NCBI GenBank assembly: GCA_001972305.1
Contig: BDDD01000984.1
Coordinates: 221,800-285,799 of the forward strand
Reading direction: 5' to 3'
Source: Cephalotus follicularis
Taxonomy: Eukaryota; Streptophyta; Magnoliopsida; Oxalidales; Cephalotaceae
Length of the DNA: 64,000 nt
The translations under genes and the position numbers were made by a program. This document shows positions 3,712 through 62,640 of this stretch, piece by piece (the first letter of the stretch is position 1; every line of letters starts with the position of its first letter). Under the pieces are notes generated by a model. The model was not told the origin of the DNA and did not search any database. It worked only from the letters and a program-made list of their open reading frames with translations.

Positions 3712-3947
3712 CAGTCGGCTGTCTCTGTGGACAGTCAGCTGGAATGGATGAGTAGTCGACTGCCATATGAATGCAGTTGACTGCCTTCGGTTGAGTAGTC
3801 AACTAGAGGTATGAACCAGTCGACTGCCTGCACTTTAGATTAAGTAGTCGACTGGACCTTATGAATAGTCGACTGTCTTGCTTCCCCAGTCGACTGGAGC
3901 CCTATTTTAGTCGACTGTTTTGCCCAGAAATGTACTGTTTTCGACTG
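3712..3947 (+). repeat. Regularly spaced CAGTCGACTG palindrome array
   Basis: Ten copies of a 10-bp motif, consensus (C/T)AGTCGACTG, start at 3712, 3732, 3753, 3774, 3796, 3817, 3845, 3866, 3887 and 3908. A weaker copy lies at 3938. Start-to-start distances are 20, 21, 21, 22, 21, 28, 21, 21 and 21 bp. The spacers between motifs do not resemble each other, so this is not an ordinary minisatellite. Several copies are changed at the central CpG (cagttgactg, agtcaacta), as expected from methylated-cytosine decay. Function unknown. Confidence 0.9.
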
Positions 3948-5346: not shown

Positions 5347-5950
5347 CAAATGGGTAGAGCGGGCCTTCTACACCATAACCCACGCCATCCGCGATGCTAA
5401 TGGCGCCGGGAAACGCACGGCGAAGGCGCGACAGTGGCGGGGAAGAAAGGAAAAATAAGAGAAAAGAGGGGAAGGGGGAAGAGCTTACCGGCAATAGGCG
5501 TGCCTGGGTGGTCAGTCGTCCTCTCCCGGTCACGTGGCTGGCTCCAGCGCCGTCTCCGGTGCCCTATCTCCCTCTCTCTCCCGCACTCTCTCTCTCTCTG
5601 CAGCTTCTTCTTCGCACGGACGCGCTATGCGCCCGTGTCTTCCCCTTCTTCTTTTATTATTTTTGCTTCCCCCTCAGTATTTTCTGGTAAAATACTAAGG
5701 TCTGGGTCCCGATTTTTCCTCGAATCGCGACATAAATTATCCGAACAACCACCAAAATAATAGCAATAATATTGCGAGCATTTGGGATTTATTGCCGCGC
5801 ATTAAAAATAGGTTTTATTAGCCGTCTTAGCTAACACGATTTCGACTTAAATGCGTAATGCCTTTTTATTACTACGGGCCCTATCGATTTTATCACAACT
5901 GTACACGCACCAATTTCATAATAATTATTTATGAAATTAGGGGCATTACA
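5347..5950 (-). mobile_element. Start of a minus-strand LTR (TGTAATGCCCC type), truncated
   Basis: Read on the minus strand, the segment begins with TGTAATGCCCC at 5950, directly beside the pol of the next element, and runs to 5347, where LTR-C ends. It is GC-richer than its neighbours. It holds a GA/CT-rich stretch (5560-5600) and short open frames on both strands with no recognisable protein. The simplest reading is that the element ending at 5346 inserted into this LTR, and the rest of this LTR lies left of the window. No target duplication can be tested because the other ends are off the window. Confidence 0.55.
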
Positions 5951-5961
5951 AGTTCATATGG

Positions 5962-6453
5962 GAGAAACTGCTTGTTGCTCAGAGCCGACAGAAGAGCTAT
6001 GTTGACAGTGTCAAGAGGAGACCTTTGACCTTCGATGTCGGTGATCATGTTTTTCTAAAGGTTTCACCGTGGAAAGGCGTTCAAAGGTTTGGGAAGAAGG
6101 GCAAGTTAGCTCCGCGCTACATTGGTCCTTTCGAGATTTTGGAAAGAGTTGGGGAGGTGGCTTACCAGCTTGCTTTACCCCCTGCACTGTCAAATTTGCA
6201 TGACGTCTTTCATGTGTCAATGTTGAGCAGGTATATTCGAGATCCGTCACATGTCTTGGATTGTGATTCTGTCCCTGTGAGAGATGACCTTTCTTGCGAG
6301 GAATTTCCGGTGCAGATTCTGGATTGGAAGACGCAAGAGTTGAGGAACCGAACCATTCCTATGGTGAAGGTTCAGTGGCAGTTTCACCGTACTGATGAAG
6401 CGACTTGGGAACGCGAAGAGGAGATGAGGGAGCGTTACCCTCACTTGTTCTAG
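5962..6453 (+). pseudogene. Ty3/gypsy pol C-terminus: integrase tail and chromodomain
   Basis: This is an open frame of about 160 codons ending in TAG at 6451-6453, with its 5' part missing. It begins within the integrase C-terminal domain (AQSRQKSYVD near 5980), continues through GDHVFLKVSPWKGVQRFG, and ends in the chromodomain-like segment MVKVQWQFHRTDEATWE. In chromoviruses this tail is thought to guide integration through histone binding. The frame is uninterrupted, so this copy may be younger than its neighbours. It is cut at 5951 by the minus-strand LTR. Downstream are a polypurine tract and the 3' LTR. Confidence 0.9.
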
Positions 6454-6498: not shown

Positions 6499-6643
6499 TG
6501 TAACGCCCAGGGTTTTTCATTAAAGTGTAATACTGTATTCCCAATGTAATTTACGCTTGAATTAATGAGAACCATGTTTTTCCCTCTTTTGTGTGTTGAA
6601 AGGTTGCAAGAAAGTGTGTGTTGGTGTGTTTTTGTACAGGGGG

Positions 6644-6797
6644 AAGCCGACTGCCACAGGGAGGCAGCCGACTGGACCCCTTGTTGAGGGACAACAGCCA
6701 ACTGCTGTGAGGAAGCAGCCGGCTGGTGTGGGTGTCAACAGAAACAGCCGACTGCCAAGTCAAGGCAGTCGACTGCCAGGCACCAGACAGCCCACGT
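6644..6797 (+). repeat. Palindrome array, first cluster of LTR-B
   Basis: Copies of CAG(C/T)CGACTG and variants start at 6644, 6665, 6695, 6716, 6745 and 6766, with a weak one near 6787. Spacings are 21, 30, 21, 29, 21 and 21 bp, that is, about two or three DNA helical turns. The spacer sequences are unrelated to each other. Confidence 0.85.
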
Positions 6798-7310
6798 GTT
6801 GTCAGCCTTGAAGTGACAAAAAGTGGGAGTTTTGGCTTATTTGGGCAGATGGCAGAGAGAGGGGCCGGGTTCCTCTCTTAAAAACACAAGCTTTCCTCTC
6901 CAAATCTCCATCTTTCTCAGTGAATTCAAGAGTGTTTGGGAGTAGAGAAAATGGAGTGAAAGTGTGTGTGTTGTGGATCTAAGGAGCTTCGTGTTGAACC
7001 GTAGACTTGGTGGCTTGGACCAGTGGAGGAACCGGAATAGTGGGAGTTACTGAACGAGCTAGGGAGTGAAAAAGCCTCGGATTTCGACTTAAAGAGGTGG
7101 ATTGCAACTCCTAACTTGGAGTCCTCAGGTAGGGGGAAAGTCGTTTTTGCACTTAATTTCAACCATAAATGTTTTCCGTGAAATGAAATGCATGTTTGTG
7201 TTATATTGTGAGCCTGAAATGTGTTGTTACATAAATGAGTTGTTTTTGGTTGTGTTGGGTGTGTGTTGGGGTTTGTATAGCCGCTGGTTTTCTACACCTG
7301 CAACAGAATC

Positions 7311-7621
7311 CAGCCGACTGCCCGTGTTGGGCAGTCGACTGCTCAATGGGTCCAGCCGACTGTTCTTGGGAGGCCAGTCGACTGCCCATGTGTGTGTCTC
7401 TAGGAAGTGCCTGCAGAGGTTGTGTAGTCGACTGATGTAGGTCAGCAGCCGACTGGTGGGTGTGGACAGCCGACTGTCCTGAGGAACAGCCGACTATCAA
7501 GTGTGGGCAGCCGACTGTCGAGAGAGACAGTCGACTGTCTGGTTGTGTAGTCGACCGCCTGGGTTGGGCAGCCGACTGTTTTGAGGGGAACAACCGACTG
7601 CCAGTGGGAGGCAGCCGACTG
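7311..7621 (+). repeat. Palindrome array, second and largest cluster of LTR-B
   Basis: Fourteen copies of CAG(C/T)CGACTG start at 7311, 7332, 7353, 7375, 7425, 7446, 7467, 7487, 7508, 7528, 7548, 7569, 7591 and 7612. Spacings are 21, 21, 22, 50, 21, 21, 20, 21, 20, 20, 21, 22 and 21 bp. The 50-bp gap looks like one lost copy. The roughly 11-bp spacers show no shared sequence. The form CAGCCGACTG is common here and CAGTCGACTG elsewhere. This is the clearest example of the array in the window. Confidence 0.93.
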
Positions 7622-8189
7622 TCAGGGCCTGTTTTGCCTTGTGAACATCTGTATGCATCGTGTATTGTGATGAGCTGCTTTGTAAAGCTTTATGAACTGT
7701 TTTGAGCATTGTGATTATTGAGTTTGAACTGTTATATCATCTTTCTGGAAGTGCATTGTAGTTTAATGAAAATCATTACTTTACACGAAAATGTATGTTT
7801 GAGAAAATATATATTTTCGAACCGTGAAAATGAGTTCCAAAACATTGTGAACCGAGTTTTATGATATTGAGAACCGAGAACCGTGACATCGTGAAAATGA
7901 GTTTGTTTTCAAGTATTTGTTTTATAAATTACTTGGAAAACTGTTTTGAGCATCGAGATGACTGTGATTGTGATTGAGTTGACGGTGGTTTGCTGATTGA
8001 GATTTTGATTGTGACCGTACTAGTTGCGTGGAGGAGATGCCAGCGATGACTAGTGGTTGGGTTGACTCAGGGGCCAGGAGTTGGCTGGGTGACTCATTGT
8101 ACCGTGACATGCTTCATACCATCCGGAGTCGGGGCTGATGACAGGAGTACGACGTCGGGGCCAGGAGTTGGCGACGCTCTTCGTACCCA

Positions 8190-8282
8190 CTGTGAACCGT
8201 GAACCGTGAACCGGGTATTGTGTAGTCCTTTGGACTTGTCTGAGACCGTGAATCGTGACATTGTGACACCGTGACATCGTGG
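8190..8282 (+). repeat. Short ACCGTGA-type repeats
   Basis: GTGAACC is repeated three times in tandem near 8192-8212. Related ACCGTGA and ATCGTGACA units then continue to 8282, next to a TA microsatellite at 8288-8305. The stretch is low-complexity sequence within LTR-B, with no coding potential. Confidence 0.6.
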
Positions 8283-8800
8283 TTGGCATATATATATATA
8301 TATATGCATCGAGATATAGTATGTACTGCATCATATTGCATTCATGCTTGGTTTTGTTGATCTTATGTTGCTTTGATGACTTTCGCCGAGTGAGGACAAA
8401 GGCTAAACCCCTACTGTTACAGATTGAAGTAGCGTTTTGGATATCGCCGGGCAAGGCTATGTCAGGATGGGATGCGACAGGGTTTACTTTGCTTTAAATG
8501 TTTTGTAAAGTAGCGTACTTAAAACATGATGTAGTTTGGATTATTGTACTAATGTTTTGCTGTTGTTGATCGACTTTTGGATCATGCTCCGTTGTGGGCT
8601 TTTTAACAATGCTTTTCAGTTAGTGTGTTCGGGAATCATGTAGTATGGGATGCATGGTTCCGTTTGCTTTCAGCTTATAGTTAAATGCTTCCGCAAGTTT
8701 GATGTTTAATCAAAAGTTTTATGTTTTACCGTTTTCTGTATAGGCTGGATGTTTGTTAAATTTCCATGTTGTATGTTGTGAATGCAAGCGGGGTGTGACA

Positions 8801-10198: not shown

Positions 10199-10341
10199 AC
10201 CGTCGACGCTTTGAGCCCTGACACGTGCACGAACGCACAGTTGAAGGCTGAGTTAAGGAGCCTAACTGTCGACCTTTAAACGCCCAACATTGACGCTTAA
10301 AGGCGTATAAGCGTCGACGCCCATGAGATAACCGGCGACGC
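10199..10341 (+). repeat. GCGTCGACGC-type palindrome array in 5' LTR-A
   Basis: Motif cores (TCGA or a decayed form) lie at 10203, 10241, 10269, 10290, 10314 and 10335. The last four are 21, 24 and 21 bp apart. Flanks favour GCGTCGACGC rather than CAGTCGACTG. Several cores show C-to-T or G-to-A change at the CpG (CATTGACGC). Confidence 0.75.
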
Positions 10342-17800: not shown

Positions 17801-20220
17801 GTCTTTAGTGTATATGGTTCCTCCCACTATTCTAATCGTATCCCACACCTCTATGTGGAATTCGGGAGGATCAGACCTCCTAGTGGGGATCAGAATCTAT
17901 CTCAGAATACAATGATCTTAGCTGTAACCATACGAACCATAATATCAAGATAGGTAGACACACACGTCAGTTTACATTCCGGGTCCAACCCTCGCAATGT
18001 TAGATCCGGTCATACATTCGGCCCCCGACTCAATATGGTCCCAGCTATAGTTGTGCAAACCATAAGAACCAGTATAAGTGTGGGCCTAGAATCCTCAAAG
18101 AAATTAACTCGTTTTGAAACACCCACACGGGACCATGTCTTGATGCCAAAACATAGTCATTTCCTTGTAGCGCCTTGCACTACAATTGAATAGTAATGGT
18201 CATACGGTCCCTAGCTGTAGCTAGCCGTCCACAATATATCTATGCCATTCAACAAGAATCATGGAAAGCCAACGATGGGACACCCTTGTGCCCCACTGCA
18301 AATGGACTTATTATTTCAATTTTGGAGGAATTTGAGGTCTCACCAATTTAGAAATTACCAAGTCATTATATTAATCCAATTTTATCTTCCAATCCAATTG
18401 AAAATAGCTGAGCATGCTTGACATGTTTGGAAACATCCATCTCATGCATCCTATGTCCAACATAAAAGAAAAATGGTTGGGCTTGGGACTAAAACTATAA
18501 ATGATCACGGAAGCCAACGTGATCACTTGGTCTCCTAGGTGAACTATTTAAAACTACTTTATTTCAAATTGCACCATGCATACATGGCTTTCACTTGGTC
18601 TTGCAATCTCCTTGATCCTCCTTTTCAAGATCCTTTGGCACTTCTTCTTTAATTATATCCAATATATTAAAAAAGAAAAGAATATAAATGGAGGGAGAAG
18701 AGAATTATATCATAGAGAGAATTAAAAGAGGATAAGGAATTATGGTGTACGCAGGCAACCTTATTACAGATCAAATAAATTCCATATGAATAAAGCAATT
18801 TAAATCCATCCACAAAAGAAATCAAAATCAAGGTCAAGTACCAAGCCTACTATTCATGCATAAGATTTTCAAACTAAACATATATAATATATAAATTTGA
18901 ATAAATACAAAAAAAAATTAATATTCGATGGCTTGTCAATTTAATTGGTAGCCAAAAATTAATTCTAGCTCCCACTAGATTTTTTAAAATTCAATATCCC
19001 AAATTATAGTTCAAAACTATTTAATTTTATGGTCAAACCATTTAAATTTAAATTCAAGAAATAATACAATATAAATATTAGTTAATAAACTAATATTATT
19101 ATTCTCTAAGAATTAATTACATTATATAAGTAAACTAAATGCATGAGTGTAATAAATTTTTGCCTAAACAATATAGTATGTGCCTGTTTAGTCCATGCAG
19201 TAATTCTGCCAGTAATTGCACGAAAATTGCGTAGAAAACACTGTAGGAAGCTTGCAGGAATTGTGAAGGAAACTGTCAGCAATAGTGTAGAAACTGCCAT
19301 AAACTGTGGAAAAAACTTTACACTAAGACAGCAGTAAGCTGTACAATTGCATTGCATGATAACTGCCAGTAGGACTGTACTAAATATTGCAGAAAAATTG
19401 TACAAAATTTCTTCACATACGTAGTTTTTACCGTCTACTAGATTATTTAAAATATAGTATCCCTAATTATAGTTGCAAACTATTTAATTTTATGATCCAA
19501 CCATTTAAATTTAAATTCAAGGAATAATGCAATATAAATATCTGTTAATAAACTAATATTATTATTCTCTAAGAATTAATTGCATTATATAAGTGAACTA
19601 ATTGCATAAGTGTAATAAATTTCTGCCTAAACAGCCTAGTATGTGCCTATTCAGTCCATGCAGTAATTCTGCCAGTAACTGCGCAAAAATTGTGCAGAAA
19701 AGGTTGCAGGAAGCTTGCAGGAATTGTGCAGGAAACTGTCAGTAATAGTGCAGAAACTGCAAGTAACTGTGCAGAAAACTCTGCGCTAAGACTGCAGTAA
19801 GCTGTACAATTGCATTGCGTGATAACTGCCAGTAGGACTATACTAAATAGTGCAGCAAAACTGGACAGAAATTTCTGCACATACTTAGTTTTTACTAAAA
19901 AAATTCCTAACACTTAAACCTAGTTTATTAACTTCCTAAGACACTATTTATGATCTTAAACCGTACAAAGGACTGTTTGAATTCCCCGTACACCATAAAC
20001 AGCCTAAGTACATATCTTTGGATCAATAAACAATCCACTTGGTTGTCAAATGCACTAGTTCACTTAAATAGTCCAACTAATTAAATTTTTATACACAATC
20101 CAATTGCTCCCATTATAAGAATTCACTTAGGGTTTGAAGCTTAAACTTTCAGCCACATTAAAAATCACCAAGCAAGCCACCAAACATTAAAATTAAGGTC
20201 CAAATGGTGTTAATTAGGAG
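17801..20220 (-). other. Long leader between copia PBS and gag, with internal duplication
   Basis: About 2.4 kb separates the primer-binding site from gag on the minus strand. I see no coding signal here. The part at 17820-17900 matches the leader of the plus-strand copia at 35440-35540, where TCCCACACCTC is shared. The sequence at 18960-19900 is AT-rich and contains a tandem duplication (separate entry). A similar leader follows the PBS of the second copia element, so this is probably part of the element rather than host DNA. Confidence 0.6.
18973..19898 (-). repeat. 463-bp tandem duplication in the copia leader
   Basis: Two copies lie head to tail, offset by 463 bp: for example GTGTAATAAATTT at 19148 and 19611, and CCATGCAGTAATTCTGCCAG at 19193 and 19656. 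Both include a stretch dense in TGCAG and CTGCAC. The second copy keeps more intact TGCAG units than the first. One copy of this unit, in opposite orientation and more diverged, occurs at 34640-35180. Confidence 0.88.
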
Positions 20221-21319: not shown

Positions 21320-24209
21320 TGTAACACCCCCCGAACGGCGGGAGTCGTTACGGTTCCTAATCCGAGACTAAACATAACCTATCTTATAACATGGCTCAAT
21401 TTTATTCTTTTTATCAAAATATTAACTCATCTTTTATTCAAATTTGCGTGATGGTCTAAACATAACATATATATAATCTAATAAATAGTCTGAAAACTTT
21501 ATTCATAATTTAAACATAAACCAAAAGCTTAAACATAATTCTAAGTCGTAAACTGAAAGGCATAACATAGTTCGAATAGGGGTCCTAACATGACCATAAA
21601 ATAACTAAGCAAAAACGAGTCCATCTCCTAAGTGATCCTTATCATAGGTGACATCTCGCTCATCACACATTGCTCGGATGCTGTCCCATAGTACCTGCCG
21701 CATGGAAACAAAAACGCGGCTGACCAAACCTCAGTACGGATAAGGAATTAAAACAATAAACAATAATTTTAGGAGATAGAAAAATACCCGAATCTTTAAA
21801 TATCATATACTTTATGCATAAAATAATTTAAAATGATTTTCAAAAGCAAAGATAAGTAGTCATACAATCAATTCAAAACGAGTATTAAATTTTTAGGCGT
21901 TATTCAATTTTAAAACATAATCTACGTTCAACATCCCAAAACATATTCAAAACTAAAAACAACAAACAGAGACTTATCCGATTCCATAATCTCATTACCG
22001 AGATCCAAAGTGCATACACATATGCATAGGTGCAAGGGGTTCATGAGGCCCACATGCCAAACGGAAAGACGTGTACGGCACTACACAATCAATCCCCAGA
22101 ATCCATATCCTTAACATAACATATAACTAGAGTATACCCATACGCCTCTATCACAAAATCGGATCCATAAGTCCACCTCATGGGACTTATTCAAAACAAA
22201 GAGAGACGTTGTAGTCAAATCACACTGCTACGGAAGTGTCACGTCCCCGTGCCAGGCCCACGACGTGCCCATGGTACCTCCATAGGTAGGAAATATCTTT
22301 GTGTGTATCCTTATTTTGAAAACATTATTTTATTTCTAAAAACAATTTAAAAACGTAAACGCATTTTCTAAACATTTTCTGGACATAGTAAAATCATTAT
22401 GTAACATTAACTCATTTATTTTCCACTATAAAGAGATGATCATTTCATACCATATCGTAAAACATAACTAAGTCTATAAAACGAGATCATAGATTAAAAC
22501 TGATTTTAGTTTGATAAACAGATAGCCAAAGAACGATAGAATTCCGTACATTATTTATAAAGTAAAACAGGACAGTTTCAATAAAATCAGATAACCGAAG
22601 AACGATAGAATCTATACGTTATCTATAAAGTAAAACTATCTTTTTACTATAAAAACAGTAGGAGGGTGTCAAGGAACGAAACATTCGTACCTTAAGCGAT
22701 CACAACAAAGATAGGCGAATTGATCAACAATTTTAAAAGTCCTTCGAAGCACAAAAATCTAAATGGTACAATATCATTCATATAAGCATTCAATTATCAC
22801 TTCCAAACATCAAACAGTAATTTAACAGTGCTTAAAACATACTCCAGATTATTACAAAACCAAACGGGTGACAAAACTTGAAACCAGAAAAATTACTGGA
22901 CAATTCCAGTCGACTGCATCAATATCCAGTCGACTACTCAAGGTGGCAGTCGACTGTGTGGCATAGGCATCCAACTACTCAAACTGGGTTGAATCCAGTC
23001 GACTGTGACAGGGGGTCCAGTTGACTGTGCAAGGCAAAACAGTCAACTGTTTCAAAAGGAAGTCGACTACTTAATGGCTAACAGTCTATTGTCTAATTTG
23101 ATAGTCGACTATTCTGCTCGACAGAACAGCACACACATCAGTTTTTAATTCCAATTTTCTTTCAAACCATTTTTACTACATTACCATATGATTTTAAACA
23201 CTTACATAGGACCTATGTGACTTAAGACTTGTATTTAAACACCCAGAATCAAGAAATTCATGCAATTGGTGATCATACTTTAAAGAGAAGCAATTTTCCA
23301 ATTTATTACATGCATAGCTTATGATCAATTTTCTGTCATTCACCCATTGTTAGGTTCAAAATCTGTTTACTAGCATTACCAGACTCTTCAGGACTTGCTA
23401 ACAATCTCATAAACAGTAACAAAACATGCATGGCAGGAAATCACAACATACTAGGAACCAACATGCAATTAGACTTTAACATCCTTAAAACAAAACTAAA
23501 TGCTAACCATAATATCAGAGGAACAAACCTGTTTCAGTGAAGCAAAGGAGACAAAAACAGGCTCAAATTCGGCTACAAGGGGAGTGATACGCAATGGAGG
23601 CACACAATGACTAATGGCATACATATACCACTTAGAAAAGGCAATTTAGGTCATGCTAAGGCAAAAAGGAAATCAAAATCTGTTATGATAAGGAAAAGGA
23701 GCAAAATTTCGGGATTGACAAGGAGAAAAGAAGGCAAGAAATCTGTTTTGTGAAGGGAGAGAGCAAGAGTACGAGAGAGGGAGGGAAATAAAAGGGAAAA
23801 AATAAGCCTTTAACCGAAAATAAAAATTTTATTCCTTAATAAAACAATTTTGCCATTTATAATAAATAAAACTAATTTAAACTAATTTACAATAGCATAA
23901 AATTAATTCAATTAATTTTACTTATTCACGTACGTAGTCTAACCAATATTCCACAGCCCAAAATTAACGTCTTTAACCCTAAAACATAAAAGCCCAGATT
24001 AATATTCACCAACCATATTTTTATTTTAAAAACTGATTTTAAAATACATAACAATAAGTTTTTGCTTTTCCAACGTTCAAATTCTAATAAATACGAAAAA
24101 CCCTAAGTTAAAATCATATAGCCCAAAGATCACATTATGCCAACACAATATAACAAAGCTAAATCAAATAAAATCCGAAATTATGCACGTGAACGAACGA
24201 GGTGTTACA
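21320..24209 (-). mobile_element. Solo LTR-C with perfect target duplication
   Basis: The plus strand reads TGTAACACCCCCC at 21320 and ends GAGGTGTTACA at 24209, 2890 bp. GATTT flanks both sides (21315-21319 and 24210-24214). There is no internal region, so it formed by recombination between the two LTRs of an element. The minus orientation is set by the block order: LTR start at the right, palindrome array 22907-23111, then ACCAAACCTCAGTACGG near 21724 close to the LTR end. Confidence 0.93.
22907..23111 (-). repeat. CAGTCGACTG palindrome array in the solo LTR
   Basis: Ten motif starts lie at 22907, 22927, 22947, 22968, 22996, 23018, 23040, 23060, 23082 and 23102, including decayed forms. 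Spacings are 20, 20, 21, 28, 22, 22, 20, 22 and 20 bp. Read in LTR orientation the 28-bp step falls after the sixth motif, exactly as in the array at 3712-3947. Confidence 0.9.
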
Positions 24210-26914: not shown

Positions 26915-29242
26915 TGTAACACCCCCGATGGTGGGAGCCCTTACAGGTCATAATACCAAACTGAAACATAACAAAAATCTAAACAAAAGACTGATATGAA
27001 ACGGATGTGGTGGTCTGAAAGCATATCTTATAACAAACTGATATAAAACAGAGTCTGAAAACTTTAACAAATCATAATTAAAAACAAACCATAATCCGAT
27101 ATCCAAATACTGAAAACATAACCGAAACAAAACTAAAATCTAAAACTGTTTTTACTGAAAACTAATCTGATTCTACTGGAAAACACAAGGACCAACTCCT
27201 AGATGATCCTCTGACAATTGGATAACTCTCATCACACGTTTTCCCCATGCTCCTGAAAACTTGCCGCATAGAAACAAAAACGCGGCTGAGCAAACCTCAG
27301 TACGGATAAGGAATTAAAACAGTAAACGGTAGACAGAATAATTTGAACTTTAAATTCATTAAAGTAACATAGTAAATATTCTTGAAAAGTAAAACAGAAT
27401 ATTTAAAAGCTAGCAGTTGTAAAATCATCATAACTTTGCGAAAACATAACATCATAATTCAAAACATTTTCTGATTTCATAATTCCATAACAGAGAATTT
27501 CTGACATACATACATATATAGGTGCAATTTTCTCTGTATGTTATTATGCTAAAACTTTGTTTTATTCTAAAACAGTTCTAAAATGTACTTATGTAAACTG
27601 CGTCCAGACATATCCAAAATTATTTAAAAAGAATCATACTTCCATATCAAAATCCAAAATAAAAATCTGATCTGTATCTGAAGTTTAACATACTTCCTAA
27701 AGTGGAAGTGATGTCTAAAACAATTATCATACTTTCGATAACAGAAAATATGCTTATTAATAATCAATATCCGAAGTAACAATGTTAAAGTCCATTTCAG
27801 TAAGATTATTATCATAATGAGAATATTCGTAACAAAATACGAGTTTTATTTCAAATAAAACCAGGAACATAAATCCATTCAATAAAACGTACAAAATCAT
27901 CAATTAACGAAGGTTTAATCGAAGGAGTACCAAAGAACGAAAAATCCGTACCTTAGCAGATCGAAAATCTAAACAATCTAGAATACCAGACAAAAGCACC
28001 CTAGAAGTGTCCTAAACTCCACAACGAATGATATTAAGACCTAAACATACGAGTCCAAACATCATATAACATAAAAAGATCAAAACATCAAAACTGCCAT
28101 AAAGCGTTGACAGTTTATACTTAGGCATCGACGGTTTCACTGTATAGAAGGACAAAGCGTCGAGCAAGGAGTCGACTGTCCACAACACAAAACAACACAA
28201 AGTGGAGACCCTCAAATACTAAGCGTCGACGGTTTGCGTCAGACACAGAATACCAATGAAGAAACTAGTTTTGAATCCATGATCAAATCTGATTTTTGAT
28301 AAACACGATGCATAATTAACAACATGTAAGTTCAGTGACATGTTATATTTATTCAAAAACGCCAGAATAACCCTATGATTTCATGCAAAGTATAAAATAC
28401 GTTTTGAATTGAAATTTTTGGATATTTAAACAGTTTATGCAAACCTAACTGCAATCCGAATTTCTTTGTGTATAAATCCAAAAATCAGTGACATATATAT
28501 ATATATCTATAACATGAATTAGTTGCTTTAAACACCGGTATATCAATTCAAACATGTAAGGATAATAAATACATAATGAGTTCAAACAGCAGAAATTTAG
28601 TTTCAACAGGCCTCTAAAAACATGATCAAAATTAAATTCTAGCCTATTTCAATACGAATTAATGGGTGATATAGAAACTACATAATACAAGCTACAATTT
28701 CGTTTAGAAATTACCTTCAGAAAACGTCGAAATCGATGCAGAAAAATGCGTTCAAAGTTGCTGTTCGTGTTTGTAAAAAGTGCAGATAGTTTTCTTTCAA
28801 AATAATTCTTAGTCTTTTAAAATCAGAAAAACGAGTAAAATAAATGATAAAATCGTGCATCTAATGAGTTTTCCTTTCATGCATATTCGGTTTCAACAAA
28901 CAAGGAAAATCAGATCAACAAAAATGGCAAAAACCTCTCTTTCCCTAAACAGCCCACCGTCCAATCTGGTATGGAAAGCCGACTAAAGCGTCGACTGTTT
29001 ACTTAAAGCGTCGACGGTTAAGCACTGAAATACAAAACGCGTTGAAGTCACACGTTTAGGCGTCGACGTGTCACACAACACCCAAAGCGTCGGCGGTTCT
29101 AATGAGAGCGTTGGTGCTTTGTGCCCAGAAAACAAAAATAAAAGAAATTCAAACTAAAAATCAAAGCGTTCACAAACCATAGCATATATCAAAAGGTATA
29201 AACCCAACATAAAACATGTAAGCATAGAAACGAGATATTACA
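26915..29242 (-). mobile_element. 3' LTR (LTR-C) of a minus-strand gypsy element
   Basis: On the minus strand it starts TGTAATATCTCG at 29242, right after the polypurine tract, and ends GGGGGTGTTACA at 26915, 2328 bp. The left flank is TATCT. It has palindrome cores at 28107, 28128, 28160, 28226, 28991, 29011, 29063, 29090 and 29111, mostly with GCGTCGACGG flanks. The CAAACCTCAGTACGG block is near 27290. The splice-donor-like AAGGTAATTT lies near 28710. Confidence 0.88.
28100..29115 (-). repeat. GCGTCGACGG palindrome clusters, minus strand
   Basis: Cores at 28107 and 28128 are 21 bp apart, 28991 and 29011 are 20 bp apart, and 29090 and 29111 are 21 bp apart. Single copies lie at 28160, 28226 and 29063. 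Flanks read AAAGCGTCGACGGTTT, a longer near-palindrome than in other LTR groups. Confidence 0.7.
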
Positions 29243-33701: not shown

Positions 33702-34322
33702 ACAGCACAACAAATGAATTCTCTCTTTCTCAGTGATATTGCTAACACTCAGCTCAACTCATAAACGTAGCTGATATAGAGAATTCGTTTCAGTGTCTCA
33801 TCACTCCACTAACCTAAGCTTCCCACATTTTCTTTTCTCTCTCTCCACTGTTTTCTTTCTCTTTTGTTCTCTTCTGTTTTCTTACCATTTTGCATGTTAC
33901 AAAAGCTCAGGACACATGGAAGACACTAACCCTTCTTTGTGATCAGTTGGTGACACGTTTGTGCCACGTTTCTTTGTCATTTCACACTATCAACACATGT
34001 CCTAATGATTCACGCCATTGCTCTGTTTCTATTCAACACGTAACAGGCCTGTCTGAGCTCTCCCAGTCGACTGTCCCTTTACGAGTCGCCAGTCGACTGT
34101 TCTCTTCTAACAGTCGGCTGTCAAGTGCCAAATCTTTGTTTTCTTAAACTTTACTCAACCATCTTTCAATTTAATTCAATTTAGTCCACTGCCATGCAAT
34201 TAGACCCTTAATAACAACAATTAGATTAATCCAATGGACCATTAAGCATAAATTTCAAATTAATGTATATTTTATTCATCATTTGTACAATATACATTAA
34301 ATTTGAAATTGCGGTTATTACA
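33702..34322 (-). mobile_element. LTR-A fragment, minus strand
   Basis: The minus strand begins TGTAATAACCGCAATTTC at 34322 and follows the start of LTR-A (compare 49993-50640): ATGATGAATAAA, then a region with CAGTCGACTG motifs (34064, 34090, 34111), then CTATATCAG near 33775. It is cut at 33701 by another LTR. Its start lies only 7 bp from the copia primer-binding site at 34330. Confidence 0.8.
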
Positions 34323-47053: not shown

Positions 47054-47240
47054 AAGACATCGACGTCTTTTCGAAAGACGTCGACTCCTTTGTGAGCTAG
47101 GGCACACGTGAATGCATGGGCATGCACGTCGACTTTGGGAGAAAGCATCGACACCTCCTTACCAACTGGAAAAGACATTGACGTCTAAGGGAAGACGTCG
47201 ACGTCTTTGTCACGAATGGACAGCATGTTCTTCGTCGACA
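47054..47240 (+). repeat. GACGTCGACGTC palindrome array, first cluster
   Basis: Cores lie at 47060, 47081, 47129, 47148, 47178, 47198 and 47235. The flanks read AAAGACGTCGACGTCTTT in the best copies, an 18-bp near-perfect palindrome. Steps are 21, 48, 19, 30, 20 and 37 bp. Confidence 0.8.
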
Positions 47241-47959
47241 AAACATCATGCATGGGGGAATTGTTTAAAGGCTACCTAACACCTTCTGTAGTGCATATTG
47301 ACGTGTTGTGCGTGTCTGTGTATCTCCAGGGATGCCCAGAACATGTCCTCACATGGAACATGCAGAGGAATCCCCACCTGCCATATGCCACCTGCAAAAA
47401 GGAAAGAAAGAAAATAAAAAGAATTGCAGAAAGAGAGAAAGTGGGAGAGATCTTGGGTGTGGTTGTTAGATGACAGAAGAAATGTGTTAGGTGGGAGGTG
47501 TCTGCATAAAAATAACCCTCCCAACCTATCTCTCTCGTTTTATAACACCAGAAGGGAAGAGAGAAGAGAGAAAGAGAAAAGTGTGTGTGTGCCATTGTTG
47601 GAGCTTGGAGCTTGCACACCAGCTGCCAGGACGAACCAGGGAGTTGCCAAAGCGTACCTGTGGACTCAAGTGACCTGTTGGAGTACTAAAAGAGGTGGAC
47701 TTTCGATTTCTAACTTGAAATCAAAGGTAGGGGAAAGTGATGAACTTATGTATGCATTTTAAGTTCTAAGTTAATGTATAGCATGGTGAATTGCATGTTA
47801 TTGATTGGATTGAAATTCTGGACTTGTTGAAATGTTACTGTGATGTACTGAGTTAGTCATGTATGTATAGATACGTGAATACGTGTGTTGCTTGTGTAAA
47901 GGATTGGTTTATAAATGGCTTGGTGTGTTGAAACCATGGAAAACACGTTCTGTAATGTA

Positions 47960-48345
47960 AAAGACATCGACGTCTTTGTAGAAGACGTCGACTCCTTTTC
48001 TGGGAAATCATTGAACTGTGATGTTTACTTTGGATGGCCATTATAGCCACTTGGAATTACCTGTTTGGTTTCGGATTGATGCTATGGTTGTGTTACTATC
48101 GACCAGTAGCATGTCTTGCACGTTTATATAGTGGGATCCATTTATATAAAGGATTAAAAGGTTGAGTTTTAGCCTCCTGAATCAAGACTCGCAACTGATA
48201 CTCCCTGGTATGAAAAAGACATCGACGTCTTTTACAAAGACATCGACGTCTTTGGTCCAGAAAAGCCTGGGAATAATTGGACATAAGATTCACACTTTAG
48301 GCTAAAAGACATCGACGCCTTAAGAAAAGACATCGAAGCCTTTCC
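47960..48345 (+). repeat. GACGTCGACGTC palindrome pairs, second cluster
   Basis: Three pairs are each separated by exactly 21 bp: cores 47967 and 47988, 48222 and 48243, 48312 and 48333. Each motif sits in AAAGACATCGACGTCTTT-like sequence. Confidence 0.85.
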
Positions 48346-49992: not shown

Positions 49993-52101
49993 TGTAATAA
50001 CCGCAAATTCAATTTAATGTCTATTATGTAAATGATGAATAAAGTATACATTGAATTGAAATTGTGCTTAATTGTTCATTGATTAAGCTGATAGTTGTCA
50101 TGGAGTTACATTGAGGTCTGAATTGAATGGGATTAAAGGAATGGAGGACTAAATTGAATTAAATTGAAAGTTAATTTAAAGAAACTAGAATCTGACATGT
50201 ACACATCGACGCCAACGAAGGACGTCGACGCCTTGAACCAGATAAGTATTTTGATACATGTCAATTGAAATGGAACAACGTAGACATTGACGCCAAATGA
50301 AGACGTCGACGCCTTGAATCCAGGTTAGAGTTTTGATACGTGTTGATTGAAAGAGAATTAACGGCATGAGTGTCCTTCAATCTGGACAGGTGTGATGCTA
50401 GTGTTAGATGGAATGAAACATGGCAAAACACTAGAGAAACCAGCAGAATGGAGTACCAGCTGTCATCTGCATTAAGGACTAGTGTCTTGACTGATGTAAC
50501 CTGCAAAATGAAACGAGAAAACAATGAGATCATGGAATGAGAGAGAAGAGAAAATGTCAGAATTCTGAGTTAGAAGATTCACTGGATTACTGAGATAAAT
50601 CTTCTATATCAGACACTCTGAGAGTTGAGTTGAGTTAGAAATCCTCTTAAAAGAGAAGAGTACGTCTACTGTGCCGAGTTATGCAAAGAAGGGTATTCAA
50701 AGTGGAGCTTGAGGCTTGAAGTGGTTGGTAAGCTTCAGGTCGAATTCACTGTTTCTGTTATAGTTAATAAGTTATATATACTGATCTTGTACATAATGAT
50801 AACCTACAACACAGATTTGTTTCTGTTGAATCATAGAGTGACTGGGTTGTTGGAGAGTTGGAACTCTAAAGAAAAGAATCAATACAAATTGATTATGGGA
50901 AAGCAACTGAGGTAGGGTTTATGACATTTTTTTGAAGATATAACATGCATATTGTGTTATGGTGGTTTATAGGTGCTTGCATGTTGATGTTATACTGGAT
51001 TAAACTGTGAAATTCATGCTCTGTTTTGGATGAATATGTACTATGTATAATGTTATGTTGAGAACGACGCACAAACCCAGGATAAACATCGACGCCTAAT
51101 ACTTTAACTTTGACGCCTAAAGCTACTGTCTTAAAGGACATCAGCGCCTAAGAGGAAAATGTTGACGCTTAAGGTTCCTACGTTAACGCGTCGACGCCAA
51201 TGTTGAGCATCGACGCCAAAGTTAAACGTTGACTCCTAAGATACACATTGACGCCAAAGTTATACGTTGAAGCCTTACTGAAACAATAGAGATTTTTCTC
51301 CTGTTTATAGTTGATTTTCATGATATTACACTGACTTCCACATTGTGAACTATTATGCATTATTACTGCTTTGATTCTTGTAATCATTAGTGATTGTACT
51401 GTGGTGCAAATTGCATGTTACTGAAAATTATTCACTGTTATAGATATATTATATCTACCAAAGTATTTTATACAAATACTATTGTTTCAAAGGAATCTAT
51501 AACTGAGTGCTATATGCACAACTGAATCTTTTACACTGTACTGTTTTCTCGAAATGAGAACTTACTGAACTGTTTTATTGTTTTCTCTTCAAAAGTGAAC
51601 CACTGTTATATTACATTACATTTGTAATAACTGTAATGTTTGTGATTGATTGTCTGATGGTCTAGTGATCTGAGAGTATCACTGACTACAAAGGTGGGCC
51701 TAGGTGTCAGGAGTTAGCTAGAGCTTATACACCAAACTTATCTGCAATGCAGATCGTGACTGTTAATTGCCCGCTAAGTGCTGGCAATACTGTTTACCTT
51801 TTCTGTTATCGTCGAAGTGTGTGGTGATAGTTAGGTGGTGTATTGTTGGGGCTAGGAGGTAGCGATGTGTGACACCCTACTGGTTTATATATATTACTTT
51901 ATGTATATACTGTACTGACATATGACCGGTCATGAATGACTACATATATATATTCATTTTCATGCATACTTTTCCTACTTAGCCGAGTAGACAAAAGGCT
52001 AACACCTACAATTTTAGACTAATGAAGGAAGTTTATGGGCGTGCTGCTGAAACTGTTCTTGAAGGATTTTCTTTAAGGTTGTAAATTGTAATAAGTCTTA
52101 C
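49993..52101 (+). mobile_element. 3' LTR (long LTR-A), first part
   Basis: The start is TGTAATAACCGCAAATTC. It aligns by eye with the 5' LTR at 40172-42340. Differences include a deletion of about 110 bp after CACCCTACTGG (51885). It ends at CTTAC, the target duplication of the 52102-59997 insertion. It contains palindrome cores at 50206, 50225, 50287 and 50306 (pairs 19 bp apart) and 51089-51271, plus hairpins 51740-51831. Confidence 0.93.
51083..51271 (+). repeat. Palindrome array in 3' LTR-A
   Basis: Cores lie at 51089, 51110, 51141, 51162, 51191, 51210, 51229, 51248 and 51267. Steps are 21, 31, 21, 29, 19, 19, 19 and 19 bp. Flanks read (A)CGTCGACGCC. The last five copies are exactly 19 bp apart, slightly tighter than in the other LTR groups. 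Confidence 0.8.
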
Positions 52102-54008
52102 TGTAACACCCCCAAGACGTGGGAGTCGCCACAGTGCATAATACCAAAACTAAACAGGTCACATTACATTGAATAATTCATCTTTATTTAAAAACGTGAT
52201 GGTTTAAAGCATTACCATAACATATAAAATTGATCATAAACTTGAGCTTATTCAAAATTCAAAATCATAAACTAAAATTAACATATTGGTCAATTTAACT
52301 GGTTCCACTATGACCACATAACATAAAGGATCGGCTACTAAACAATCCTCAGATAAGGATGGGAGTCACTCTCATCACACATTGCCCCTTTGCTCCTGAT
52401 AACCTGCCGCATGGAAACAAAAACGCGGCTGAGCAAACCTCAGTACAGATATAGAATATAAAACAGTAAACAATATTTTTAAAGCAGGAAGATTTCCAAA
52501 AGTGCATTAGAGTTGAAATCTTAAGCAATAAAATAGTTAAACATGTTTTATAAATGCTAACGGCAAAACGGAATAACAAAGTTCATAACTTTGAAAACCA
52601 TAAAGTGTATCTTTTTCCAAAACATAGGATCAAAAACCTGAGCACCAAAACCAAAACATATCATATAATAGCAAGGAGTTTCGCGACACCCACATTGCCA
52701 ATGGAATTGTAGTATACGTCACTATACATACAATCTCCATATCCCAAACATATACCAATAACATATAACTAAGATCGATCTATACGTCTCTATCCCAAAT
52801 CCGATCTACGGATATCCCTGAGAGACGCCGTAAATGAATCACACCGTTACGGAAAGTGTCATGCCCCCGTGCCAGGCCCACAGCATGCCTATGGTACCCC
52901 CATAGGTGGATATAATAGCTCAGTATTTTACCATTTTCAAAAATATGATTTCATCAAATCATTTTCAAATAGAGACGTTTCTCAAACCATTACCATAAAT
53001 CGTACTCAAACGATATACTTTCATAATTAATTCATCAAATTTTACAGTAAATAGATGATTGCATATCATTTCGTAAATACATTATAACTGATTTTATAAA
53101 GTCAGAATATTTACTTCGCAAAATACCAAAAGACTTTATTTGCAAAAATCCAACATACGGAATTCATAAACCAAAGTAAGCATATTCATAAACCAAGTAA
53201 TATCAAAATCAGAATCTGTATTTAAATCTCAAACGATACCGAAACGAAAAGAATATGTCAAGGAACGAAGAATCCGTACCTTGCGCGATCAGAAATAAGC
53301 TTACGAATAACTTAAAGGTTCCACGTAGTACACAAATCTATACAATACGAAAACATTCGTATAAGGGTCTAAAATCCATTTTGAACATAAAACAGAATCA
53401 CAAAGATGTTTATAATTAAACCCGGATCATCGGAAGAATAAACGGACGAAAACCGAAGTTTACAAGACAAACCAGTCGACTGTTTGAAGTATCCAGTCGA
53501 CTAACAATGGGTGGCAGTCGACTGCATAACAGGACCAGTCGACTACTCATCCTGGACTTGCAGACAGTCGACTGAAACAGGGTATCCAGCCGACTGAACA
53601 GGAGAACTAGTCGACTGCATTTACAGGGCAGCCGACTGCCTTGCTCGACAGAAACCAGAAACATGGCAGATTTGCTGCAATTTTGCTACCCAAACCCAAG
53701 TTGTTCCTTACCAGATGATTTCTAACTTTAAGAACAACCTTATATGACATGTAAAACAACATTACATCACTGAATTTGACAGAACCTCATTAACAGAAAA
53801 TTATTCCCACATGGTGGAGACTTTAAACCATGGCATACAAATCCCTAACCCAATCCTATCCATTTATAATGATTATATGCATCAACAACAGATTATAGGA
53901 CACTCTTTAGACATCTACAGACTGCTATAACACATGACAATTCAACAGAAAAACAAAATGGGCAGAAACCAAGACTACTTCTCCAATGACAACTTAAACA
54001 TGACCCAA
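52102..54008 (-). mobile_element. LTR-C copy 1, start missing
   Basis: 1907 bp, ending (minus strand) GGGGGTGTTACA at 52102. It is joined at 54008 to RT at GTTGGGTCATG. It is near-identical by eye to copy 2 at 55971-57877, with scattered single-base differences. Palindrome array at 53473-53638, CCTATGG hairpin at 52889-52907, donor-like CTGGTAAGGA near 53707. Confidence 0.92.
53473..53638 (-). repeat. CAGTCGACTG array in LTR-C copy 1
   Basis: Eight motifs start at 53473, 53494, 53515, 53536, 53565, 53587, 53608 and 53629; steps are 21, 21, 21, 29, 22, 21 and 21 bp. The position of the longer step matches the solo LTR at 22907-23111. Confidence 0.9.
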
Positions 54009-54840
54009 CTCAATCCTAGGCAAAGGGTATTTATTACGAACAGTGATTCGATTCAGTTCTCTATAGTCAATACACAGTCTCATAGATCCGTCCTTCTTCT
54101 TCACAAACAAAACCGGAGCTCCCCACAGCGAAACACTTGGCCGGATAAAACTCCGATCTAGCAACTCTTGCAACTGTTCTTTAAGCTCTTGCAACTCTAA
54201 CGGTTCCATCCTATAAGGTGCTTTAGATATAGGTGCCGCCCCAGGAATGAGTTCGATGGTAAACTCCACTTCCCGTTGCGGTGGCAAACCCGGTAATTCC
54301 TCCGGAAACACATCAGAAAACTCTCTAACCACAGGATAATCTTCAAGGCGAGGCTCGGCCCTTGAGACATCCTTCACAGCAGCCAGAAACCCTTCGGCGC
54401 CCTTAGCTACTAACTTCTGAGCTTTCATAACAGATATAATCTTAACATCTTTCATAGGCCGTGAACCCTGATAAATAAAATCAGGTCGATCCACATCTCC
54501 GAACAGAACCCTCCGAGCATGACAATCAATCGTAGCCCGATGGCGCTCCAACCAATCCATCCCCAAAATCATATCGAAATCATACATGTCCATAGGAAAA
54601 AGATTCACATCACGAATCCGGTCATCAAAAACAATTGGGCAATCATAAAAACACTCAGATATCATAACAGATGTCCCCATAGGGGTAGAAAGAACCAAAG
54701 CAGGATCAAACAATTGCGAAGGCATACCAAGATGCCGAACAAAAGATCTCGCCACAACCGAGTGTGTCGATCCAGTATCATATAACACATAAGCTCTACG
54801 GTTACCAACAGAAATAAAACCCGAAACCGTACCTGGAGCA
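54009..54840 (-). pseudogene. Protease and RT start of the nested LTR-C element
   Basis: The minus-strand protease has the catalytic triplet in [14 protein letters not shown] near 54770, followed by DMILGMDWL near 54560. RT begins near 54340 ([18 protein letters not shown]) and continues through [12 protein letters not shown]. It ends abruptly after NKYPLPRI, where LTR sequence starts at 54008. The catalytic Asp pair of RT is therefore missing. The region is in the same frame as gag, separated by stops near 54943 and 55100. Confidence 0.92.
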
Positions 54841-55790: not shown

Positions 55791-55953
55791 GTACCATCTA
55801 CGAAAGAATCCGAACACGTGATATCAAACCGAAACACAAAACCAAAACAGAAAACATATCAAAAAGGCTGAAACATAACCGAATAACCCTAAACCAAGTC
55901 TACCCAAACTCACAGGTCAAACCTAGTCAGGTCTCCTAAGGAAACAAAACCTA

Positions 55954-55965
55954 TCTCTGATACCA
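55954..55965 (-). other. Primer-binding site, minus strand
   Basis: The minus strand reads TGGTATCAGAGA, one base from the initiator Met tRNA complement, 5 bp inside the LTR end at 55971. It proves that the LTR at 55971-57877 acts as a 5' LTR for the gag at 54841-55790. Confidence 0.9.
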
Positions 55966-55970
55966 TAAAC

Positions 55971-57877
55971 TGTAACACCCCCGAGACGTGGGAGTCGCCA
56001 CAGTGCATAATACCAAAACTAAACAGGTCATATTACATTGAATAATTCATCTTTATTTAAAAACGTGAAGGTTTAAAGCATAACCATAACATATAAAATT
56101 GATCATAAACTTGAGCTTATTCAAAATTCAAAATCATAAACTGAAATTAACATATTGGTCAATTTAACTGGTTCCACTATGACCACATAACATAAAGGAT
56201 CGGCTACTAAACAATCCTCAGATAAGGATGGGAGTCACTCTCATCACACATTGCCCCTTTGCTCCTGATAACCTGCCGCATGGAAACAAAAACGCGGCTG
56301 AGCAAACCTCAGTACGGATATAGAATATAAAACAGTAAACAATATTTTTAAAGCAGGAAGATTTCCAAAAGTGCATTAGAGTTGAAATCTTAAGCAATAA
56401 AATAGTTAAACATGTTTTATAAATGCCCACGGCAAAACGGAATAACAAAGTTCATAACTTTGAAAACCATAAAGTGTATCTTTTTCCAAAACATAGGATC
56501 CAAAACCTGAGCACCAAAACCAAAACATATCATATAATAGCAAGGAGTTTTACGACACCCACATTGCCAATGGAATTGTAGTATACGGCACTATACATAC
56601 AATCTCCATATCCCAAACATATACCAATAACATATAACGAAGATCGATCTATACGCCTCTATCCCAAATCCGATCTACGGATATCCCTGAGAGACTCCGT
56701 AAATGAATCACACCGTTACGGAAAGTGTCATGCCCCCGTGCCAGGCCCACAGCATGCCTATGGTACCCCCATAGGTGGATATAATAGCTTAGTATTTTAC
56801 CATTTTCAAAAATATGATTTCATCAAATCATTTTCAAATAAAGACGTTTCCCAAACCATTACCATAAATCGTACTCAAACGATATACTTTCATAATTAAT
56901 TCATCAAATTTTACAGTAAATAGATGATTGCATATCATTTCGTAAATACATTATAACTGATTTTATAAAGTCAGAATATTTACTTCGCAAAATACCAAAA
57001 GACTTTATTTGCAAAAATCCAACATACGGAATTCATAAACCAAAGTAAGCATATTCATAAACCAAGTAATATCAAAATCATAATCTGTATTTAAATCTCA
57101 AACGATACCGAAACGAAAAGAATATGTCAAGGAACGAAGAACCCGTACCTTGGGCGATCACAAATAAGCTTACGAATAACTTAAAGGTTCCACGTAGCAC
57201 ACAAATCTATACAATACAAAAACATTCGTATAAGGGTCTAAAATCCATTTTGAACATAAAACAGAATCACAAAGATGTTTATAATTAAACCGGGATCATC
57301 GGAAGAATAAACGGACGAAAACAGAAGTTTACAGGACAAACCAGTCCACTGTTTGAAGGATCCAGTCGACTAACAATGGGTGGCAGTCGACTGCATAACA
57401 GGACCAGTCGACTACTCATCCTGGACTTGCAGACAGTCGACTGAAACAGGGTATCCAGCCGACTGAACAGGAGAACAAGTAGACTGCATTTACAGGGCAG
57501 CCGACTACCTTGCTCGACAGAAACCAGAAACATGGCAGATTTGCTGCAATTTTGCTACCCAAACCCAAGTTGTTCATTACCAGATGATTTCTAACTTTAA
57601 GAACAACCTTATATGACATGTAAAACAACATTACATCACTGAATTTGACAGAACCTCATTAACAGAAAATTATTCCCACATGGTGGAGACTTTAAACCAT
57701 GGCATACAAATCCCTAACCCAATCCTATCCATTTATAATGATTATATGCATCAACAACAGATTATAGGACACTCTTTAGACATCTACAGACTGCTATAAC
57801 ACATGACAATTCAACAGAAAAACAAAATGGGCAGAAACCAAGACTACTTCTCCAATGACAACTTAAACATGACCCAA
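55971..57877 (-). mobile_element. LTR-C copy 2, start missing, flanked by both pol and PBS
   Basis: 1907 bp, the same length and limits as copy 1. Its minus-strand end borders the PBS (as in a 5' LTR); its other end is fused to the pol end (as in a 3' LTR). The palindrome array at 57342-57507 has starts at 57342, 57363, 57384, 57405, 57434, 57456, 57477 and 57498, with the same steps as copy 1 and two more decayed motifs. Confidence 0.92.
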
Positions 57878-60182: not shown

Positions 60183-61060
60183 TGTAACACCCCCGAAGGT
60201 GGGAGCCCTTACAGGTCATAATACGTAACACATCTAAACATGAACTCAAGCATAATCTTAATTTTATTCAAATACGTGGTGGTCTAAAACATAAACCTTT
60301 AACATATCATAATCTGTAATATAAGCCAAAACTATAATCCGAAATCATCAACCGAAAAACATAATATTGTTCAAAAGACTGGTCAAACACGACCATTACA
60401 CTACTGAAAACACAAGCGGACCAATCTCCTAAATGATCGTCAGACATAGGTCGACATCAACCATCACATATTTCCCCGATACTCCTGATAACCTGCCGCA
60501 TGGAAACAAAAACGCGTCTGAGCAAATCTCAGTACGTATAAGGAATGTAAAACAGTAAACAAAAATTTAAAAGGTAAATGAATATCTTAAATTCATGATT
60601 TACCTACAAGATTGTAGCCAGCCGACAGAAACAGGGGTCCAGTCGACTGTTCAAGAAGGCAGTCGACTACAGAACACATAACAGCCGACTGTTCAGGAAA
60701 ACAGCCGACTGTTCTGGATGACGGAACACAAATATCTAACAGTCCTATCCAATTTTTCTATCAAAATCTAGATATCATATTATCAGGAGGCCACAACCAT
60801 TTAAAGAAGACTCTATATGGTATTAAAACAGTAAAAGAACACTGAAATTAATGGAGATATACAGACAGTGGCTATGCTTAAAGAGGAGGATAAGTTCTAA
60901 TCCATTTCATTCATACATATATAACCCGATCTTTAACCCGATCCGTTACAGGGATACTGGGATGACTTTAACCATAACCCATGGCACAAACTGGTCATAT
61001 AGATTTCCTTCTGTCATCTTCTCCTTCATATTTTTTTTCTCTCTTCCCAGCACAGCACGA
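60183..61060 (-). mobile_element. LTR-C fragment, minus strand
   Basis: The plus strand reads TGTAACACCCCCGAAGG, the reverse of an LTR-C end, inserted in the LTR-A 3' LTR after CCATG. The block AGCAAATCTCAGTACG is near 60518. A palindrome array lies at 60619-60711. Compared with other LTR-C copies, about 900 bp between these two blocks is missing. The right limit is approximate; no matching CCATG boundary was found. Confidence 0.75.
60619..60711 (-). repeat. CAG(C/T)CGACTG array in LTR-C fragment
   Basis: Five motifs start at 60619, 60640, 60660, 60682 and 60702, with steps of 21, 20, 22 and 20 bp. Confidence 0.85.
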
Positions 61061-61734: not shown

Positions 61735-61850
61735 GGGGAATTACAATAGCAGACCACATTGCCAGGGGAACCACAATGGCAGACCACAACAGATCATAAT
61801 GCCAGGGGAACAACAATGGCAGACCACAACAACAGATCACAATGCCAGAC
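61735..61850 (+). repeat. CCAGGGGAAC/CAGACCACAA repeats
   Basis: GCCAGGGGAA occurs at 61731, 61762 and 61801, each followed by a form of CACAATGGCAGACCACA. Steps are uneven (31 and 39 bp). It leads into the 34-bp array. Confidence 0.7.
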
Positions 61851-62600: not shown

Positions 62601-62640
62601 TCAACACAAGGCCCGTCAACAAGGAAATGACAACGTTTAA

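Follow-up and report, generated by a model that had tools for sequence, protein, structure and literature searches.

Paired palindromic boxes spaced by two helical turns in plant LTRs: a putative cis-regulatory module

The array under study, G2, belongs to a group of arrays in which a palindromic 10-bp box is kept while the spacers drift, the boxes being paired at about 21 bp (two helical turns) and the pairs repeated. From the sequence, we consider with moderate confidence that such an array serves the LTR as a module of regulation in cis, composed of paired palindromic putative protein-binding sites and controlling LTR transcription. In the window (the whole stretch of 64,000 nucleotides that was analysed), the fourteen boxes of G2 start at positions 7311, 7332, 7353, 7375, 7425, 7446, 7467, 7487, 7508, 7528, 7548, 7569, 7591 and 7612. 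They correspond to the fourteen copies of CAG(C/T)CGACTG, with steps of 20-22 bp and one gap of 50, reported in a preliminary description of this DNA; ten of them carry the exact CAGYCGACTG, three have one mismatch and one has two mismatches. The location of the array inside an LTR, proposed in the same description, is supported by the end sequences, by the purine tract preceding the start of LTR G and by the end of pol (ORF 5941-6453) just upstream; as the window contains one copy only of LTR G, the LTR and its limits are deduced from these signals. The claim that the spacers share no sequence was nearly right for G2. Their mean pairwise identity is 0.38 versus 0.30 for shuffled spacers (p<=0.0005), an excess due to the two letters adjoining each box (purines before, pyrimidines after): when two letters were trimmed from each end, p was 0.44 (left-anchored) or 0.09 (right-anchored).

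Eight arrays of this box, with 64 boxes in all, were found in the window (Table 1). A1 and A2 are each carried by a copy of a 1,909-bp repeat, and 33 differences were counted between the two copies. Judging from shared repeats and end sequences, the six arrays besides G1 and G2 probably sit in other LTRs; in the case of F, a deletion perhaps cut the array and left an odd count. The window is transposon-rich plant DNA, and its pol fragments display RT_RNaseH, H2C2 integrase, SH3_Tf2-1 and RVP_2 domains as well as one Chromo hit below its cut-off. Since the integrase follows the RNase H in these fragments, the elements were assigned to Ty3/gypsy. For one pol fragment, the best five of 7,988 scored database relatives are Tanacetum (Asteraceae) proteins with 75-80% identity, and on this sequence comparison the pol relatives point to Asteraceae. 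The integrase C-termini of A and G are 61% identical and those of A, B and C 83-85% identical. At 52100-57877, a protease-coding stretch (RVP_2) lies between the two repeats of 1,909 bp (98.3% identical) and is joined to the repeat without an RT-to-integrase part; we infer that the element is tandem or recombined and internally deleted. A 296-codon open frame without Pfam match was also observed at 61750-62637, with 34-bp (61895-62113) and 27-bp (62293-62590) tandem repeats, and a direct tandem duplication of 463 bp, 88% identical, at 18974-19895.

Table 1. Box arrays, box clusters and associated features in the window
Feature	Position	Strand	Remarks
LTR G	6499..8800	+	Holds G1 and G2; single LTR in window, probable boundaries; starts TGTAACGCCC, ends GGGGTGTGACA
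Array G1	6644..6775	+	6 boxes as three pairs (steps 21, 30, 21, 29, 21), near start of LTR G
AGGTAGGGGGAAAG	7127..7140	+	Splice-donor-like string between G1 and G2; putative function
Array G2	7311..7621	+	14 boxes, runs 4 + 10, 50-bp break
Array B	3712..3917	+	10 boxes, runs 6 + 4
Array D	22907..23111	-	10 boxes, runs 6 + 4 in element sense, some decayed
Array E	34064..34120	-	3 boxes, steps 26 and 21, breaks pair rule
Array A2	53473..53638	-	8 boxes, runs 4 + 4, in repeat copy 52100-54008
Array A1	57342..57507	-	8 boxes, in repeat copy 55969-57877 (98.3% identical to that of A2)
Array F	60619..60711	-	5 boxes, one run (odd)
LTR J cluster 1	47056..47241	+	GACRTCGACGTC-type boxes; LTR J starts at 46883; detected as runs 3, 3, 2 from 47035
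LTR J cluster 2	47963..48340	+	Three pairs at 21 bp (47963/47984, 48218/48239, 48308/48329)
LTR I cluster 1	50202..50313	+	Two RCRTYGACGCC pairs at 19 bp; same in other copy, 40379-40490
LTR I cluster 2	51085..51275	+	One pair and a run of 5, 19-bp steps; other copy 41263-41451
LTR C' cluster	28988..29069	-	CCGTCGACGC-type boxes, two pairs
LTR H pair	10311..10341	+	CGTCGACGC-type boxes; further pairs at 15407 and 15539

The abundance of the box was compared with chance expectation. Exact YAGYCGRCTR occurs 49 times in the window; over 200 dinucleotide shuffles, the mean was 0.34 and the highest count 3. Adjacent exact pairs at a distance of 20-22 bp number 27 in the window and zero in each of the shuffled sequences. 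In the genome from which the window comes (1,577,397,061 bases), 38,234 box pairs (two CAGTCGACTG boxes with 6-14 letters between) were counted versus 137 for the reversed pattern used as control; among the matches listed, the gap is always 9-12. An unbiased sample of 200 kb, to which 20 contigs contributed 10 kb each from the same fixed coordinate, contains 94 boxes, about 470 per Mb. Adjacent steps of 20, 21 and 22 bp were found there 6, 28 and 3 times, and steps of 27 and 28 bp 2 and 5 times, so that the spacing peak at 20-22 bp, which the preliminary description had suggested looking for, is present in this unbiased genome sample. In the sample and the window, palindromic 10-mers were also scanned without naming the box (repeats at 14-60 bp, self-complementary central dinucleotide, low complexity excluded): YCGR centres gave 117 pairs and any other centre at most 4. 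When TCGA-centred pairs with like flanks were compared with 15 other palindromic centres, the signal was weak after removal of the CAGTCGACTG boxes (7 pairs, against 8-20 for AATT, ATAT, TATA and TTAA). The 10-mer scan, with its additional demand for palindromic flanks and its exclusion of low complexity, is the sharper control. The elements that carry the boxes are a very common group of plant jumping genes.

The preliminary description regarded the array as one long row of sites on one face of the DNA. To define runs, arrays, which reach up to 18 boxes, were split wherever a step left 19-23 bp, and boxes standing alone within an array did not enter the even/odd counts. In the parity set (47 arrays of at least two boxes, L038-L057 being chosen because they hold a pair), 89 runs of at least two boxes were even and 5 odd, with 5 single boxes besides; the unbiased 200 kb alone gave 31 even, 1 odd and 2 single. 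When at most one mismatch per box was accepted, the corresponding numbers were 78, 7 and 19 for all arrays and 24, 2 and 10 for the unbiased sample, the larger number of singles being due to more boxes missed in this strict setting. For runs of at least three boxes, the even and odd counts were 42 and 5 (all) and 10 and 1 (unbiased); in the strict setting they were 36 and 7 (all) and 7 and 2 (unbiased), the latter not being significant (p=0.18). Copies within families are not independent, which qualifies both these parity counts and the divergence counts given below; when arrays were grouped into ten array families by similarity of their box-masked flanks, the longest array of each family gave 20 even runs and 1 odd run. 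Spacers of 11 letters represent 99 of the 133 unique spacers inside pairs versus 23 of the 53 between pairs within runs (p=1.3e-4). The unit is accordingly corrected from the long row to the box pair.

As for the helical face, the steps within runs have a phase of -3.6 degrees at 10.5 bp per turn, with a resultant of 0.94, in agreement with sites on one face. Among the 51 breaks that separate runs, 31 measure 26-30 bp (30 of them 27-30 bp) and 20 measure 42-71 bp, and the latter may hide lost boxes. Since the separation of 26-30 bp lies at a phase of -126 degrees, the single face is broken between pairs, and this part of the earlier claim holds within runs only. Even counts could also be obtained without cooperativity, from a duplication unit of 42 bp.

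The fate of boxes and spacers was followed in pairs of copies of increasing age. From the youngest to the oldest copy pairs, the ratio of box to spacer divergence was 1.75, 0.82, 0.30, 0.26 and 0.28. In the two copy pairs with near-identical spacers, 5 of 120 box letters differ versus 3 of 126 spacer letters (A1/A2 alone: 4 of 80 versus 1 of 86), while in the older copy pairs, with ratios of 0.26-0.30 (68/77 copy pairs, not independent), boxes change 3-4 times less than spacers. Because arrays are detected by their boxes, neutral decay of four-box arrays was simulated and analysed with the same detector as the real arrays; the ratio remained at least 0.71, with 33 and 4 arrays of 1,500 remaining in the two deepest settings. 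The dependence of the ratio on age and the simulation indicate that selection kept the boxes in propagating lineages and that boxes decay freely in single copies, and the proposal of conserved boxes with drifting spacers is supported by these data.

The same data bear on the possibility that the array is a functionless decayed minisatellite, derived from a tandem repeat of 21 or 42 bp through divergence of its units; spacer homology was regarded as the signature of a minisatellite. In G2, no homology was found beyond the two letters adjoining the boxes. Over 42 arrays, a weak within-array similarity of spacers was observed (0.39 versus 0.30 inside pairs, 0.46 versus 0.32 between pairs), and TRF called short tandem stretches in parts of arrays. 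Against this possibility, the boxes within arrays are 78-93% alike with spacers near random in most arrays, and the ratio of 0.26-0.30 lies under the lowest neutral value of 0.71. As a full account the decayed minisatellite is refuted, and we regard it as highly improbable; as an origin it is likely, owing to the weak spacer similarity. Cluster 2 of LTR I has similar spacers and is a true 19-bp minisatellite (51187-51275 and 41365-41451), unlike the arrays of G, A and B; together with the within-array similarity, it argues that tandem duplication made the arrays. Spacers at matching places of A2 and D are related (0.56 versus 0.42, p<0.001), whereas A2/B and B/D gave no clear relation (p=0.18 and 0.31). 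The A2/D relation and the shared position of the break suggest that the array predates these LTR copies.

The letters of the box were then compared between families. The core is RTCGAY, with CAG/CTG or other flanks. In the boxes of the A family (A2, B, D and F; sense; n=33), T occupies position 1 in 12 and A occupies position 10 in 3; G is found at position 7 in 8, and position 4 is T in 33/33 and C in none. In the LTR G boxes (n=20), this bias at positions 4 and 7 is reversed, with C4 in 14 and G7 in 1. Relative to element sense, box variants and spacers run in one direction in the A family and in the opposite one in G, as an enhancer may show. Inside pairs, a spacer signature of roughly CCCTGTGG was seen on one strand, coming mainly from one group (54/104 units). 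An extension of the palindrome through symmetry of the flanks of the same box gave p=0.023 at +-1 in the window and was not upheld in a larger set, in which one of many tests gave p=0.005 and a further test showed no symmetry.

These letters allow a known class of stress-responsive enhancer to be considered, in which AP2/ERF factors, for example of the DREB type, would make the LTR inducible by cold or drought. The DREB-type core is RCCGAC; GCCGAC is present within CAGCCGACTG, and 14 of the 20 G boxes have C4. RCCGAC is absent on that strand in the A family, where position 4 is always T, and a monomer site leaves the full dyad symmetry and the pairing unexplained. Such an enhancer therefore appears very unlikely.

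The boxes could also form an anti-silencing or boundary module, recruiting a factor, which may be encoded by the element and co-evolve with it, so that DNA methylation is removed or blocked as by VANC on VANDAL; this is unlikely. VANDALs are MULE DNA transposons, no candidate protein was found (intact elements being outside the scope), and the central CpG is kept in only 7/10 boxes of B and 6/10 of D. It is kept in 8/8 boxes of A2 and 19/20 of G, in favour of such a module, as is the fact that the LTR adjoining the pol of C carries another box class than A and B despite pols 83-85% identical. From this last comparison, box letters may turn over faster than pol. In the available part of the VANC report, the targets of VANC21 and VANC6 are short motifs densely repeated outside the coding regions of VANDALs; these arrays arose by tandem repetition and vary from one related family to another, and the VANC protein is element-coded (PMC5735166). 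The present arrays resemble them in density, non-coding location, tandem repetition and divergence between families; they differ in element class, in the element-coded protein, which is known for the VANDAL arrays, and in motif, YAGTATTAY in a VANDAL element (the VANC21 motif, PMC5735166) not being what is found here.

The even box number is also a requirement of RNA hairpins, in which a pair would form a 10-bp stem and the 11-letter spacer its loop, for packaging or dimerisation of the element RNA or as a source of sRNA. The arrays fold far better than shuffled sequences (A2 sense, z -9.65; G2 antisense, z -11.2). With the boxes fixed and spacers internally shuffled as control, the antisense spacers of G add folding (G1, z -2.9; G2, z -4.25), whereas those of A2, B, D and F add nothing on either strand; the effect in G is not slot-specific (z -0.18 and -1.48 versus permuted spacers). 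Complementary closing letters inside pairs were counted in 59/135 cases versus 41 when permuted, and in 44/104 versus 31 after orienting, but after clustering to 24 units the excess faded (9 versus 7.1, p=0.25). Furthermore, none of 12 strand/array tests showed better pairing between adjacent boxes than after permutation of the boxes, partner boxes show no covariation, the better-folding strand varies (sense in A2, B and F, near-equal in D, antisense in G1 and G2), and loops do not need a strict 21-bp spacing. In maize, palindrome clusters of the cis-region of Sirevirus LTRs are, in the available parts of the reports, hotspots of sRNA mapping with strong predicted folding (PMC5311732, PMC10760457), which favours a hairpin; the present arrays share the location in LTR clusters and the predicted folding, with another box and superfamily. 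Hairpins as the function of the pairs are unlikely, while the strong folding (z to -11) leaves room for some RNA role.

Boxes of related classes were found in other LTR families. In LTRs J, I, H and C', the boxes are of other types, for example GACRTCGACGTC, RCRTYGACGCC and CCGTCGACGC, with the RTCGAY centre shared and mostly in pairs. Genome-wide, two GACATCGACGTC at 21 bp, with at most 2 mismatches, were counted 7,793 times versus 48 for the reversed control. The pair rule is looser here: in the sample and the window, RCRTCGAYGY runs were even in 61 cases, odd in 14 and single in 15, the odd runs including those of LTR J cluster 1 (3, 3, 2) and LTR I cluster 2 (5). LTRs G, J and I share a layout in which one cluster near the LTR start is followed by the splice-donor-like string AGGTAGGG and then by a second cluster about 180-240 bp downstream of AGGTAGGG.

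Palindromic boxes repeated in LTRs have been described for Sireviruses (Ty1/copia), so that the term "undescribed system" of the preliminary description was too strong. In the available part of that report, the repeated motif (RM) consists of palindromic boxes of 10-20 bp, clustered and at least 8 per element, with family-specific outer letters on a shared core and a CGG-CCG signature in all but Tnd-1; the clusters start 200-400 bp into the LTR, upstream of the TATA box, and no common binding factor was identified (Bousios et al. 2010, PMC2829016). The present boxes are similarly palindromic and reach at least 8 copies per LTR (20 in LTR G, 10 in B), and CAGTCGACTG departs from the RM of Vitis, CGGTCGACCG (PMC2829016), in two letters only. 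In LTRs G, J and I, cluster 1 was located at about 145-356, and a plain string scan for TATAA or TATATA gave no shared place. As far as the same part of the report goes, the present arrays differ in superfamily (Ty3/gypsy instead of Ty1/copia), in core (RTCGAY with CAG/CTG or other flanks instead of CGG-CCG), in the second cluster far inside the LTR, and in the 21-bp pairing and even counts, which it does not mention for RM (PMC2829016). They are thus not an undescribed class, and these four features distinguish them from the Sirevirus boxes. The arrays also fit the anatomy of the SIRC (short interrupted repeat cassettes) of Arabidopsis, in the available part of that report a detection class rather than one motif, with short direct repeats of 10-29 bp in 2-8 copies and diverse spacers, common in mobile elements, related by the authors to MITEs and without palindromes in the repeats in about 57% (PMC10342631); yet the present arrays reach 18 boxes and TRF calls parts of them, whereas SIRC are defined without a tandem-repeat call.

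No description of the present box was found, by titles and abstract starts, among the matches listed in the literature on LTR palindromes and enhancers, Sireviruses, Ty3-gypsy, chromovirus/Tekay, Asteraceae, GTCGAC and VANC/anti-silencing. Searches for the exact box string and for the Vitis RM string returned, among the titles of the matches listed, unrelated topics, and these hits were taken for primers. Pattern and protein scans of IMG/VR gave no relative. In GTDB genomes, CAGTCGACTG pairs occur in 13 stretches; the 7 inspected appear unrelated, since their spacers are near-identical or the palindrome is present in two copies only. The bacterial contigs L002, L009, L011 and L012 hold 4-5 CAGTCGACTG palindromes with 21-23 bp steps and near-identical spacers, and L007 and L010, which belong with L012 to one Myxococcales MAG, each contain a single pair.

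In the cis-regulatory module that we favour, a dimeric DNA-binding protein would occupy each palindrome, and two dimers would cooperate on one face of the DNA, one pair being the working unit and extra pairs raising occupancy. The two-turn spacing, the pairing, the dyad symmetry, the CpG in most boxes and the opposite orientations all fit such cooperating dimers. The bound protein would then activate LTR transcription from positions on the promoter side as well as in a leader intron, promoter and intron being predicted from sequence strings only. As A and G share the box with integrase C-termini only 61% identical, the protein is more likely to come from the host, as one factor or several related ones, than to be element-coded. 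A wider proposal, that RTCGAY palindrome pairs form a lineage-wide cis code with outer letters set per family, in which diversifying proteins, two dimers per pair, lift silencing or switch on the LTRs from promoter and leader intron, is speculative and has a small chance of being correct.

This conserved, countable grammar of sites (palindrome pair, 21 bp, even numbers) would tie much of the LTR retrotransposons of a 1.58-Gb genome to one kind of regulator. Should a host protein read the boxes, that protein would control much of the mobile fraction; should element-specific proteins read them, the boxes would be an arms-race code like that of VANC, of which we know none in this element class. 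In either case, the reason for the presence of palindromic repeated motifs in plant LTRs becomes directly testable.
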